This document shows, in pieces, positions 172 to 4,096 of a stretch of 64,000 nt of DNA. The stretch spans positions 1-64,000 of the forward strand of contig NZ_CAINTR010000049.1 in assembly GCF_903853455.1 (NCBI RefSeq), in the 5' to 3' direction. This DNA comes from an uncultured Magnetospirillum sp. GTDB taxonomy: Bacteria > Pseudomonadota > Alphaproteobacteria > Rhodospirillales > Magnetospirillaceae. Position numbers and translations under genes: made by a program. The notes below the pieces were generated by a model. That model worked only from the letters and a program-made list of their open reading frames with translations, was not told the DNA's origin and did not search any database. Every line of letters starts with the position of its first letter. Position 1 is the stretch's first letter.

Positions 172-1281
172 TCAAGCCGCCTCGACCCGCTCGGCGGGGA
201 AGGTAATGGTGACGGTGGTCCCGACTCCCATCTCGCTGGCGATGCTCAGTGTCCCTCCATGCAGTTCAACGAGAGCCTTCACTAAAGGAAGACCGAGACC
301 GCTTCCCTGGTGGGAACGAGCCAAGCTTGAATCCACCTGACCAAAAAGGGTGAGAGCCTTGGTGATACCGGCTTCGTCCATACCGATGCCGTTGTCGGAA
401 ATGACGATCCCCATCTGTCCCGCCGGGGTGAGGTGAGTGGAAATTCCGACCGTCCCGTTCCTGGGAGTGAATTTCACGGCGTTGGAGAGAAGGTTGAGAA
501 CGATCTGCTTCAATCGCCGCTCGTCCGCATGGAGAGCGGGAAGGTCGGGCGGAACCTCATCGCACACTGTCACTTGCCCCTTTTCCGCCAGCGACGCGAT
601 CAGTCGAATGGCCGTCTCGACCACCTTCCCGACGCAGACCGGTTCCTCGTGCAGATCAACCTTGCCGGCCGCAATGGCCGACATATCCAGGACGTCGTTG
701 ATAACGGCGAGAAGGTGCCGTCCGGCATCGTGGATGTCGTTGACATATTCCTCAAATTTCGGGGTGGGCGCCTTTCCGAACATCCCGGTCTGCAACGCTT
801 CGGCGAAGCCGATCACCGCGTTCAACGGAGTTCGGACCTCATGGCTCATATTGGCAAGAAACTCTGACTTGGCTCGAACGGCAAATTCCGCCTCGGACTT
901 GGCGGCTTTCGGGGCGGCATTGGCCTTCGCCAGGTCTCGTTGCAGCGTGATCAGCTCGTTGTTGATCTGCGTCAGGTCGCTGATCTCCTGGTCGCCCGGA
1001 AGCGCGACGACGATCAGGCTGTCACCAGCCGCCGCCGCCGAGAAGCGGAACGGCTCCAGTCCCATGGGGGTGATGATGCCCAGCTCCCAGTTGCAGGCGC
1101 TCCCCCGGAGGCGGAGATAGGCGATAAAATCCAATGCCTGGGCGACGCTGTGTCGTTCCACCACGGCGCTGATCAATTGGCCGGGCCGGATCAGTCCGGC
1201 CTGGGCTGAGCCCTCATGAAGGACCTCGACCACAGCCCCGTCCAGGTCACAGCGCAGGATTAGCCCGTTCCCGGCGTTCAT
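172..1281 (-). CDS. Soluble sensor histidine kinase, coupled to a B12-binding sensor
   Basis: Cytoplasmic histidine kinase of 369 residues. Residues 1-100 form a small PAS-like or unassigned sensory domain, followed by a short helical linker (about 105-140). The dimerisation/phosphoacceptor domain has the H-box SHEVRTPLN with His147. The ATPase domain shows an N-box (NLLSNAVKFTP, about 263-273), a G1 box (DNGIGM) and a G2 box (GSGLGLPL). There is no membrane segment and no receiver domain. The ATG at 1281 overlaps the stop of the upstream B12-binding gene (ATGA), so the two are probably co-translated and the B12 protein may feed its signal to this kinase. An in-frame upstream extension to 1365 exists but would lie inside the neighbour. 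No response regulator gene is visible; the next segment is the C run. Confidence 0.85.
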   Translation of the reverse strand: MNAGNGLILRCDLDGAVVEVLHEGSAQAGLIRPGQLISAVVERHSVAQALDFIAYLRLRGSACNWELGIITPMGLEPFRFSAAAAGDSLIVVALPGDQEISDLTQINNELITLQRDLAKANAAPKAAKSEAEFAVRAKSEFLANMSHEVRTPLNAVIGFAEALQTGMFGKAPTPKFEEYVNDIHDAGRHLLAVINDVLDMSAIAAGKVDLHEEPVCVGKVVETAIRLIASLAEKGQVTVCDEVPPDLPALHADERRLKQIVLNLLSNAVKFTPRNGTVGISTHLTPAGQMGIVISDNGIGMDEAGITKALTLFGQVDSSLARSHQGSGLGLPLVKALVELHGGTLSIASEMGVGTTVTITFPAERVEAA

Positions 1282-2324
1282 TGCCGCGCCATCTCGATGG
1301 TTGCGACTGCCGCGACCGCGCCGGCGGCGGATTCCGCCATGCCGTCGGCCCCGATGCGCCGCCACAGGTTTGGGTCGATGTTAAAAGGGTAGCCGCCGAC
1401 CAGGATGATCAGCCCGGTTCCGCAGCCGGCGCGCGCCATGGCGATCAGTTCGGCCGCCGTCTCCAGATGAGCTGCGATGGTGACCGACACCCCCAGCACC
1501 GATGCTTGGCGTGCGCCCAGGCTGGTCACCAGGTCGCGGGACGGAACATTGGCGCCGAGATAGTGGCTGTCCCAACCCGCCATCTCGAAAAAGTCGGCGA
1601 CCATTCTCAGGCCGACCTCATGCAGGTCTCCGCCGACACTGGCGGCGACCATGGTCCGCCCGCGCTTTTCACCGGTGAAGATGAAGGGGGAGAGTTGAGC
1701 CATGACGGTCTGGGTGGCGGCAGTGATGAAATGTTCCTGCGCCACGGTGATGCGGTTGGTCTGCCACAGGCGGCCGACCTCGCGCAGGGCCGGCTGAAAG
1801 ACGTCGAGATAAACCTCGCTGACAGGCAATCCGGCCTCGACGCGATCCAGCACCAAACGGGAGGCGGCGCGTCGGTCGCCCGCCAGCAGGGCGTCGAGAT
1901 AGGCGCGGGTGAGTTCCGCGTGCGGGGCGTCGGCAGGAATGACCGAGGGCGCCTCGACGGGAAACCGACCAAGGTCGGTTATGGCACGGCGTAGCATGGA
2001 CGCCGCCCGTTCAGCCTCCTGATGGGGGATGTGGTGGGACAGTGCCTCGGACAGGGTGGCGAGGCTGCCGGACAGGTCGTCCTGGTCGATGTTGAGGCTG
2101 ACGAACAGCACCTTCAACCACCCCACATAGGCGGAGAACAGCGGATAGCTATCATTGTCCAGGGCTGCGCAGAGATACGTCAGGGTCTGGCGGGTGTCAT
2201 CGACGCACTTGCCGCGCCCGGCAGGGCCGTAGCGCTCGGCCAGCCCCTGCTTTCGGCCATAGAGCAGGCCGACGGCATCCTCGGCGATTTCCGAACGCTG
2301 GGCATTGGTGAGGGGGATGCGCAC
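1278..2324 (-). CDS. Cobalamin-binding sensor protein with CarH-type W-x9-EH motif
   Basis: Protein of 348 residues with a C-terminal methionine-synthase-like cobalamin unit. A helical cap (about 130-215) carries W187 and E197-H198 with exactly nine residues between, the W-x9-EH signature of CarH-type B12 photoreceptors. The Rossmann B12-binding domain follows (about 222-345), with D233, H235 and G238 (DLHEVG) as the DxHxxG motif whose His would be the lower axial ligand. The N-terminal 125 residues are helical and unassigned, and no MerR DNA-binding domain is present. Translation starts at GTG 2324 behind a GAGGGGGG ribosome site. It lies 11 bp downstream of a monooxygenase-like gene and overlaps the kinase start by 4 nt. 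Role (inferred): light- or B12-responsive input module for the kinase. A corrinoid methyltransferase carrier is the alternative. Confidence 0.8.
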   Translation of the reverse strand: MRIPLTNAQRSEIAEDAVGLLYGRKQGLAERYGPAGRGKCVDDTRQTLTYLCAALDNDSYPLFSAYVGWLKVLFVSLNIDQDDLSGSLATLSEALSHHIPHQEAERAASMLRRAITDLGRFPVEAPSVIPADAPHAELTRAYLDALLAGDRRAASRLVLDRVEAGLPVSEVYLDVFQPALREVGRLWQTNRITVAQEHFITAATQTVMAQLSPFIFTGEKRGRTMVAASVGGDLHEVGLRMVADFFEMAGWDSHYLGANVPSRDLVTSLGARQASVLGVSVTIAAHLETAAELIAMARAGCGTGLIILVGGYPFNIDPNLWRRIGADGMAESAAGAVAAVATIEMARQ

Positions 2325-2335
2325 CTGATCCCCCC

Positions 2336-2638
2336 TCAGGAAACGATGTGGTCAAAGACGCTGATCCGCGTCGCGCTCTGGACCAGCTTGATCCCCTCCG
2401 GCAGCCTATCATGGGCGACCTTGAAGGCCGGCGATTCGTACCAGGTATCGAAGGCGGCGCGGTCTCTCCAGTAGGTCAGGACCCAAAATTCCGAAGGGGT
2501 GTCCTGGGGCTGCAACACGTCGAGACGAACGAACCCCTCGGCCTCGTCCACCAGTCGGGGCCGATTGCGAAAGGCCTCGCGAACGGCGCCGATCTTGGCC
2601 GTATCCTTGATCTCGAACCGGCTCATGGCCACCAGCAC
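2336..2638 (-). CDS. Antibiotic-biosynthesis-monooxygenase (ABM/IsdG-like) domain protein
   Basis: Small dimeric alpha/beta-barrel type protein of 100 residues. Trp66 and His76 have the same ten-residue separation as the Trp/His pair of IsdG-type haem-degrading monooxygenases, and the strand FWVLTYWRD is typical of the fold. The usual catalytic Asn near residue 7 is replaced (MSRFEIK), so haem degradation is uncertain. GTG at 2638 is chosen because GGAGGAG lies five bases upstream; an internal ATG at 2626 is the alternative. It is first in a minus-strand unit with the B12-binding sensor and the histidine kinase. If it binds haem or another tetrapyrrole it would fit the B12 neighbour, but that is inference. 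Confidence 0.7.
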   Translation of the reverse strand: MLVAMSRFEIKDTAKIGAVREAFRNRPRLVDEAEGFVRLDVLQPQDTPSEFWVLTYWRDRAAFDTWYESPAFKVAHDRLPEGIKLVQSATRISVFDHIVS

Positions 2639-2992: not shown

Positions 2993-4096
2993 ATGCAAGA
3001 CCTGATCGCCACGGTGATGGATGCGCGGCTGCTCGATCTGCTGACCCGGTGGCGGGCGGCGGGTCCCGAGGCGGTGATCGCCGAGCCGGCGGCGTGCTTC
3101 GCCGACCATGCCGACAACCTTCTGGTCATCGACACCGATGGTCCCGGCAACCGCTATTCCCATTACGGCGCCGCCTTCACCCGCCATTTCGGCGCCGACC
3201 TCACCGGCTGCGTCATCGACGTGCTGCCCACCGACATCCTGCCGGCCGAGCGCCGGGGCATGCTGGAATTCGAATACACCTTCGCCCGCCGGGTCAAGCG
3301 GCCGTTGTGGCGGTCCTATACCGCCCAGTTCGACCAATGCACCGAGACCTGGCAGCGTCTGGTGCTGCCGGTGGGCGACAACCGGCTGGCGGTGGGCGCC
3401 TATCCGGTGACGGCCGGCGCCGCCGAGGACCAGGCCGCCCACCTGCTGCGGCTGGTGATCGATCGGGTGCCGGTGGTGCTGGACCCCAACGGCGGCATTC
3501 AGGATCTGGCGCTGTCGCTGCGCGCCTTCTGCGACACCCAGCAGCATGTGGCGGAGTTGGAGGTGCTGGCCACCCGCGACTCGCTGACCGGCGTTTCCAA
3601 TCTGCGCCACTTCCACCACCTCGCCAATCTGGAGTTGGATCACGCCCGGCGCATGGGCCGCTCGTTCTCGCTGCTGGCGTTGGATATCGACCACTTCAAG
3701 GCGGTCAACGACCGCTGGGGCCACGCCGCCGGCGACGAGGCGCTGAGGGCCTTCGTCGCCGCCTGCCGTGTCGCGCTGCGCGAATACGACATCCTGGGCC
3801 GGATCGGCGGCGAGGAATTCGCCGTGGCCCTGCCCAATACCGGCCTGGACGGCGCCCGCGTCATCGCCGAGCGCCTGCGCCGCCAGGTGGAGGAAATGGT
3901 GGTGCGACCGGCCAAGGGCGACGTGTTCGACCTGACCGTCAGCATCGGCGTGACGGCGTGCGGCGGCCACGATCCGCAACTGGCGGACGGCTTGTCGGTT
4001 CTCGACGTTTCCAGTCTGCTGGAACAGGCCGACGCGGCGCTCTACCGCGCCAAGGCCACCGGCCGCAACCGGGTGGTGGTGGCAGCGGAAGGCTAA
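2993..4096 (+). CDS. Diguanylate cyclase with N-terminal PAS-like domain
   Basis: Makes cyclic di-GMP from two GTP. Protein of 367 residues: a PAS-like sensory region (about 35-140) and a GGDEF domain (about 190-365) with the active-site motif GGEEF at 272-276. An RxxD inhibitory site (R263 to D266) sits five residues before it, so product inhibition is expected. DIDHFKAVND (231-240) carries the metal and substrate residues. No transmembrane segment or EAL domain is seen. The ATG at 2993 follows GGGAGGAG. Its stop overlaps, tail to tail, the stop of the GNAT gene on the other strand. Confidence 0.9.
   Translation: MQDLIATVMDARLLDLLTRWRAAGPEAVIAEPAACFADHADNLLVIDTDGPGNRYSHYGAAFTRHFGADLTGCVIDVLPTDILPAERRGMLEFEYTFARRVKRPLWRSYTAQFDQCTETWQRLVLPVGDNRLAVGAYPVTAGAAEDQAAHLLRLVIDRVPVVLDPNGGIQDLALSLRAFCDTQQHVAELEVLATRDSLTGVSNLRHFHHLANLELDHARRMGRSFSLLALDIDHFKAVNDRWGHAAGDEALRAFVAACRVALREYDILGRIGGEEFAVALPNTGLDGARVIAERLRRQVEEMVVRPAKGDVFDLTVSIGVTACGGHDPQLADGLSVLDVSSLLEQADAALYRAKATGRNRVVVAAEG

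Follow-up and report, generated by a model that had tools for sequence, protein, structure and literature searches.

A photocobilin-type protein coupled to a histidine kinase with a PAS-like receiver domain: a candidate split photoreceptor in an uncultured Magnetospirillum

Photocobilins combine a cobalamin domain of the CarH type with a globin that binds biliverdin, and the cobalamin domain has already been noted to stand at the N-terminal end of the chain in some groups and at the C-terminal end in others (PMC10979010). For two photocobilins, the light, Co-C cleavage and dimer steps have been measured, as has the control of a separate diguanylate cyclase in trans, whereas the function of stand-alone photocobilins was called "less clear" and protein-protein contacts were proposed for them (PMC10979010). 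Here, we describe a photocobilin-type gene at the start of a 64,000-nucleotide stretch of DNA from an uncultured Magnetospirillum sp. (assembly GCF_903853455.1, the first 64 kb of contig NZ_CAINTR010000049.1, G000:C49 in our set), hereafter the window. On the minus strand, the gene of a small ABM-fold protein is followed after an 11-bp gap by that of the B12 protein, which in turn overlaps a histidine kinase gene by ATGA (Table 1). The initial annotation had read this locus as a stand-alone CarH-type B12 sensor translationally coupled to a soluble histidine kinase; the genes and motifs within its range (1278-2638) are real, but the kinase itself was left out of that range. We consider it likely, from sequence, that the two proteins form a split adenosylcobalamin (AdoCbl)/bilin photoreceptor, in which the photocobilin acts in trans on a dedicated, translationally coupled PAS-kinase. 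An abstract on photoglobins by Schneider et al. from 2022 reportedly predicted a light-sensing bundle of globin and B12 domain linked to signal-transduction genes of prokaryotes, and the general idea is therefore not a new one.

The Pfam scan placed PF02607 at residues 140-211 (1.1e-18) and PF02310 at residues 225-338 (6.2e-23) of the B12 protein and revealed no DNA-binding domain, MerR-type included, in agreement with the initial annotation. We rejected a CarH repressor for this reason. The NCBIfam CarH model matches residues 131-327 with 61.5 bits, compared with a whole-protein cut-off of 400. Residues 1-125, a third of the protein that had previously drawn no comment, are globin-like instead. 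The protein is indeed a separate CarH-type cobalamin chain, but not a bare B12 module, since these residues constitute a phycobiliprotein-like domain. Among solved structures, the photocobilins SasPcob (8j2w/8j2x, 2.4e-24) and AbDPcob (8j2y, 1.1e-18) match the sequence of the protein best, both ahead of CarH.

For comparison, we collected 89 loci: a search matched 308 stretches, 172 of them relatives, of which the best 80 were kept, and 8 regions from related genomes and the window itself were added. Twelve of the loci are titled Azospirillum (13 with L010), so the counts below, in which the window is included, are not independent. The photocobilin alignment contains rows from 86 loci and the globin profile from 77. 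Alone, the window globin domain matches PF00502 (Phycobilisome) with 5.2e-4 and 20.4 bits, under the cut-off of 22.2 bits; PF00502 is matched by 58 of the 77 members (E<=0.1), and no other family by more than one. Compared with the PDB sequences, the profile of the 77 domains found the SasPcob globin first (3e-9), followed by allophycocyanin beta (3.9e-7) and many phycobiliproteins. The AlphaFold2 model, computed with 86 sequences (pLDDT 95.2, pTM 0.90), has five helices ahead of the cobalamin domain. With this model, Foldseek ranked the cobalamin domain of the light-responsive CtMerR at the top (6e-10), with SasPcob in fourth place (34% identity over 201 columns, rmsd 1.7) and 5c8d and 8c31 also among the matches. 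As judged from sequence profiles and the predicted fold, the protein is of the photocobilin architecture, composed of a bilin-binding-type globin and a CarH-type cobalamin domain in an order reverse to that of SasPcob. A relative lacking the globin half, with a kinase next to it, occurs at 7626-8348 of L116 (G005:C25), and the same genome has a complete photocobilin at L117.

The pocket residues are in line with this assignment. Both motifs named in the initial annotation, W-x9-EH (W187, E197-H198) and D-x-H-x2-G (D233-L-H235-E-V-G238), are at the residues given there. W61, E71-H72 and H108 of SasPcob (paper numbers, i.e., chain index plus 6) align with W187, E197-H198 and H235, with equal spacing between Trp and Glu, and its biliverdin contacts D270 and W296 align with D43 and W69, a pairing that the profile alignment reproduces. 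W187, E197 and H198 are kept in all 89 sequences and H235 in 88, while the Trp is followed by Gln, the SasPcob residue, in 74 and by His in 12. All four elements of the light signature reported for cobalamin photoreceptors, GxxW, EH, GxxH and GxxxP (PMC11796333), are present in the window protein, and the full set occurs in 72 of the 89 sequences.

These residues bear on an alternative in which the photocobilin is a chemical sensor, reporting the availability of AdoCbl and/or haem-bilin to the kinase, with any photochemistry being incidental. Such a role would suit the many relatives from metagenome-assembled genomes (MAGs) of Anaerolineae, Syntrophobacteraceae and Methanomicrobiales, which are usually anaerobic, as well as the 41 of 49 searched carrier genomes in which no PF01126 haem oxygenase was found. 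We nevertheless regard it as improbable, given that the adenosyl-contacting Trp and Glu-His, part of the above light signature (PMC11796333), are present in 89 of 89 sequences and that the window genome encodes two PHY-domain proteins, by which the host probably reads light. The single haem oxygenase of this genome lies with these two proteins on contig C176; the photosynthetic reaction-centre family PF00124 was not matched in the genome.

Whether the globin carries a pigment is the question on which another alternative turns, namely a photoreceptor that signals likewise but uses cobalamin only, with a structural, pigment-free globin. D43 and W69 are kept together in 83 of the 89 sequences. 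Position 40 is Cys in 34 sequences, including the window protein, Ser in 38 and Thr in SasPcob; C40 falls at the bilin-holding Cys of phycobiliproteins, because the Asp of CLRD pairs with the conserved Asp of that family in the alignment with allophycocyanin. A CXQD motif has been reported for photoglobins (PMC10151467). The weak biliverdin binding of AbDPcob was put down to His in place of the Asp (PMC10979010), which is present in the window protein. Five of the 89 loci have a haem oxygenase-type gene no more than 300 bp upstream, which fits a bilin ligand: it is divergent in L058, L059, L070 and L079 and on the same strand, with a weaker match (1.8e-9), in L056, and three of the five were also found with PF01126. 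The Pfam scan of upstream frames covered the same strand, and a separate search covered the divergent haem oxygenase genes. These observations oppose the pigment-free alternative, which draws on the low biliverdin occupancy of AbDPcob, suggestive of a pigment-free globin there, on the globin's PF00502 match below cut-off, on an ABM neighbour without the catalytic Asn (see below), and on the fact that a haem oxygenase was not found in most searched carrier genomes (PF01126 in 8 of 49). We consider it rather unlikely, though clearly less so than the chemical sensor. The titles of the four loci with the divergent gene point to usually anaerobic groups (delta-proteobacterial, Syntrophaceae or Desulfomonile).

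As for the upstream ABM protein (Pfam ABM, 1.7e-16), a protein of the same tight subfamily lies directly upstream of the photocobilin in 23 of the 89 loci (the subfamily profile comprises 23 of 24 ABM matches, L081 being dropped as a member of another subfamily). IsdG enzymes need an Asn-Trp-His triad (PMC6018153, PMC5557675). Ser6, Trp66 and His76 are invariant in all 23 members, and the Asn of 1iuj and 4oz5 aligns with Ser6. The IsdG/ABM-like protein 11 bp upstream in the initial annotation thus keeps its fold and spacing but loses the catalytic Asn of IsdG, and we rejected an ordinary IsdG haem oxygenase because this Asn is replaced by Ser in 23 of 23. The protein may bind haem or bilin. 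Among 60 related genomes, the ABM profile matched 18, with full-length strong matches (137 and 157 bits) only in the window genome and G059 and at most 45 bits in the rest; both strong matches adjoin a photocobilin, and both are rows of the profile. No clear link emerged between the ABM neighbour and a missing haem oxygenase, an idea we dropped: PF01126 was found in 2 of 19 ABM-positive and 6 of 30 other genomes, many of them MAGs of unknown completeness. Similarly, Cys40 occurs in 12 of the 23 loci with the ABM gene and in 22 of the 66 others, which is not conclusive.

The window kinase contains HisKA (4.7e-21) and HATPase_c (3e-27) domains, both above cut-off, and no membrane domain was predicted in the Pfam scan. 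Its AlphaFold2 model (pLDDT 84.8, pTM 0.63) matches HK853 and other kinases in Foldseek. The genetic tie that had been noted between B12 protein and kinase extends to other genomes: a kinase, recognised from the window catalytic domain, is next downstream on the same strand in 69 of the 89 loci (in 64 the longest frame starts before +60 bp, and in 5 more before +600 bp). H147, N263, N267, G328 and G330 are invariant in the 56 of these 69 partner kinases that were aligned. Common to the partners is an N-terminal domain, about 95 residues long, that leads into a coiled-coil-like stretch (consensus RLNNEL...QRELAKKN). No Pfam family was matched by more than one of the 53 members from which we built a profile of this domain (of the 69 downstream kinases), and a sequence search against solved structures returned no credible relative; designed pentatricopeptide proteins (best 8e-8, with no single stretch passing) and some marginal matches were judged spurious. 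In the kinase model, the domain runs strand-strand-helix-helix-three-strands, which is the element order of PAS domains. We refer to it as the PAS-like receiver domain.

Searched against the reading frames of all loci, the 53-row profile placed the receiver domain immediately after the photocobilin, on its strand, in 81 of the 89 loci and gave no further match within those loci. Because the profile was built from photocobilin neighbours, including 32 of the 49 carrier genomes and 5 of the 8 photocobilin-bearing related genomes, the cases outside it deserve separate mention: the domain was found in 28 of the 36 loci that gave no row and in 13 of the 17 carrier genomes outside the profile. Of the 60 related genomes, all 8 with a full-length photocobilin (G017, G020 and G035 having given no row) have the domain, always adjacent, and none of the other 52 does. 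In the 49 carrier genomes, 45 of 47 receiver-domain matches lie 660-833 bp past the photoglobin domain, i.e., directly downstream, and 45 of 53 photoglobin places have the domain downstream; the two non-adjacent matches are a weak one in G483 and one at G487:C79:7785-8207. The latter is an additional receiver-domain protein (E 1e-29), encoded on a contig with no photoglobin match, the normal pair of that genome being on C106. Across 387 genomes of the class, with about 10 candidates scored per genome, the receiver profile matched the window genome and, weakly, two others (2.3e-4, 8.7e-4), and the photoglobin profile matched the window genome, G072 and G186. The PAS-like receiver domain of the kinase is hence almost exclusive to photocobilin loci, and the association of photocobilin and kinase is not accidental. 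Two such pairs, L050 and L073, lie on contigs titled Methanomicrobiales archaea, reflecting either real transfer or mis-binning.

This association also speaks to the possibility that the B12 protein is the corrinoid component of a methyltransferase system, with a kinase as its neighbour by coincidence. MtbC/MtgC-type corrinoid proteins are indeed matched, below cut-off. However, the best solved relatives are photoreceptors, the Trp and Glu-His are kept throughout, and the receiver domain accompanies the photocobilin in 8 of 8 genomes versus 0 of 52, and in 45 of 47 carrier matches. The initial annotation had named a link to methyltransferases as a refuting outcome; none of the 25 most frequent families listed, of 35 and of 41, for the two neighbouring positions is a corrinoid methyltransferase (50 of 52 frames after the kinase, two very long ones having been dropped, and 44 upstream frames, all chosen by length and position and perhaps including spurious ones). 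The sole methyltransferase among them, PF02390 (L112), we take to be a tRNA-type family. We rejected the methyltransferase component on motifs and gene context and give it next to no credence.

The families heading these neighbour lists are instead response-regulator, PAS and kinase domains. Response_reg was found in 22 of the 50 frames after the kinase, hybrid kinases included, and a response-regulator domain in 14 of the 44 upstream frames other than ABM. Such a receiver domain of response regulators lies within 3 kb in 52 of the 89 loci, with none in the regions of G007 and G010 or in the window, where the contig ends after the kinase. In G007, the nearest relative, the frame after the kinase has no Pfam match and, by eye, lies opposite ABC-transporter-like frames, which makes a real gene improbable.

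The PAS-like receiver domain is mostly fused to kinases, and sometimes to other outputs, namely GGDEF in L062, L063 and L078 (L062 confirmed by Pfam) and a LuxR-type helix-turn-helix in L114 and L118 (Pfam) and L119 (by eye). In four Adhaeribacter/Rufibacter loci (L040, L043, L049, L064), the partner has 164-200 residues and, by eye, no output domain beyond the coiled-coil-like stretch. Very similar methyl-accepting-type proteins, also recognised by eye, follow the photocobilin, the LuxR-type partner and a response regulator in L119 (8245-10173) and L114 (10158-12092), hinting at a link to taxis.

The stop/start overlap described by the initial annotation is seen in the sequence, and it recurs. 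Taking the in-frame start nearest the stop, a choice that favours overlap, 43 of 79 evaluable pairs of photocobilin and partner overlap by 4 bp, 6 overlap otherwise, 22 are separated by up to 30 bp and 8 by more. The receiver-domain distances correlate with those of the cobalamin domain (r 0.74) and the globin (0.67) about as the two photocobilin halves do with each other (0.69; 53 pairs), while 500 shuffles of the receiver-globin comparison gave r of at most 0.16.

Based on these data, we propose the following mechanism for the window system. AdoCbl would be held between the helical bundle and the Rossmann domain, with H235 below the cobalt and W187 and E197-H198 around the adenosyl group. 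A linear tetrapyrrole probably sits in the N-terminal globin, with D43 on the pyrrole rings, W69 nearby and possibly a thioether to C40. Light would break the Co-C bond and alter the packing of the photocobilin dimer, whose changed surface would act in trans, presumably by direct contact, on the PAS-like N-terminal domain of the kinase. The coiled coil of the kinase could then relay the change to H147, from which the phosphate would pass to a response regulator encoded elsewhere. The upstream ABM protein would most likely serve the globin by handling haem or bilin.

Several observations weigh against this split photoreceptor. The 201 columns of the Foldseek match to SasPcob correspond in length to roughly the cobalamin half, which leaves the sequence profile as the basis for the permuted globin half, and the pairing of the second (globin) stretch with SasPcob in the PDB sequence match is not significant by itself. 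Position 47 is His in 77 of the 89 sequences and Thr in the window protein, and position 42 is Asp in the window protein and mostly Arg, Glu or Gln elsewhere. The scarcity of PF01126 in carrier genomes (only 8 of 49) implies that a bilin may not be bound everywhere. Eight of the 89 loci show no receiver domain, although one of them, L032, has only 99 bases left downstream. Neither G072 nor G186 gave a receiver match among the roughly 10 candidates scored per genome, the G072 pieces lying at contig ends; in G186, a frame overlapping the photocobilin end finishes in a LuxR-type domain. The correlation of distances is partly due to shared species history. SasPcob without biliverdin acted on its test enzyme with the opposite sign (PMC10979010), so that the direction of kinase control cannot be guessed. 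Finally, the phospho-acceptor region of the window kinase, FLANMSHEVRTPL, is unlike the consensus of the partners, RFLGMAAHDLRNPL.

The window kinase is a composite in this respect: its receiver domain fits the photocobilin partners, whereas its phospho-acceptor region FLANMSHEVRTPLNAV does not fit their consensus, and its best NCBIfam match, below cut-off, is DivJ. The catalytic half may have been exchanged.

A broader view, to which we would give slightly less than even credence, is that bacteria, and perhaps archaea, share a modular two-gene light cassette. A two-pigment photoreceptor would act in trans on a dedicated, unnamed PAS-like receiver with varied outputs (histidine kinases, diguanylate cyclases, LuxR-type DNA-binding proteins or none), often accompanied by a Ser-Trp-His (S-W-H) ABM protein that would make or load the bilin by a route unlike that of known haem oxygenases. 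One photoreceptor protein may thus read light and feed interchangeable outputs. Stand-alone photocobilins would gain a specific partner in the small receiver domain that recurs immediately after them in loci from many phyla. With photoreceptor and exchangeable receiver made as separate chains, such a pair would be a natural light-controlled protein-protein switch, responding from green to red and useful for optogenetics. The ABM neighbour poses a chemical question of its own, namely whether an IsdG-fold protein without the catalytic Asn makes or carries a bilin.

Around the locus, a GGDEF protein (2993-4096), whose N-terminal half has no assigned domain, is encoded divergently from the ABM gene across about 350 bp and is possibly part of the same response. 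On the other side, positions 1-120 are a run of about 120 C's, probably an assembly artefact, so nothing past the kinase is readable.

Table 1. Features of the photocobilin locus in the window.
Feature	Position	Strand	Details and basis
Photocobilin-type protein (photoglobin domain + CarH-type cobalamin domain)	1278..2324	-	348 aa, GTG start; Pfam, PDB sequence match, AlphaFold2, Foldseek
N-terminal photoglobin/phycobiliprotein-like domain, residues 1-125, with C40, D43, W69	1950..2324	-	Profile against PDB sequences, PF00502
CarH-type cobalamin-binding domain, residues 136-348, with W187, Q188, E197-H198, H235	1281..1919	-	Pfam, PDB sequence match, conservation, Foldseek
ATGA, photocobilin stop overlapping kinase start	1278..1281	-	Read in sequence
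Sensor histidine kinase, 369 aa, phospho-acceptor H147	172..1281	-	Pfam, AlphaFold2, Foldseek
PAS-like receiver domain of kinase, residues 1-95	997..1281	-	Element order in model; association across loci and genomes
ABM-fold protein, IsdG/HmuQ-like, Ser6-Trp66-His76 instead of Asn-Trp-His	2336..2638	-	Pfam, subfamily alignment

The PAS-like receiver domain and the S-W-H subfamily of ABM proteins look new, although the 2022 photoglobin study may already describe the partner. The term "histidine kinase" does not occur in the two photocobilin research papers, and in the excerpts of a photocobilin review it occurs once, for LOV fusions. Among known systems, CarH/LitR of Thermus thermophilus (5c8d) shares the cobalamin domain and the W/EH motif, but the window protein has no MerR DNA-binding domain, has Gln after the Trp and has a kinase output instead of DNA binding. 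The haem-degrading ABM proteins IsdG, IsdI, HmoB and MhuD share the sequence family, Trp66 and His76 with the upstream protein, and differ by their catalytic Asn, which is Ser in all 23 members of its subfamily. BBAG-2 globins (PMC10151467) are likewise phycobiliprotein-related globins tied to B12-binding proteins and haem oxygenase; however, globin and B12 domain are on separate proteins there, and no kinase partner is reported in the excerpts available. AbDPcob of Acidimicrobiaceae (8j2y) is also a photocobilin controlling a signalling enzyme, with a fused GGDEF and the Asp replaced by His, in contrast to the separate kinase and the retained Asp of the window system. The closest relative, SasPcob of Saccharothrix syringae (8j2w/8j2x; PMC10979010), similarly combines a CarH-type cobalamin domain with a biliverdin-binding globin without a fused output, with equal adenosyl, cobalt and biliverdin contact residues and Gln after the Trp in both. 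Unlike SasPcob, the window protein has its globin at the N-terminus and Cys40 in place of Thr, and it is accompanied by an ABM neighbour and by a recurring next-gene partner with a receiver domain of its own.

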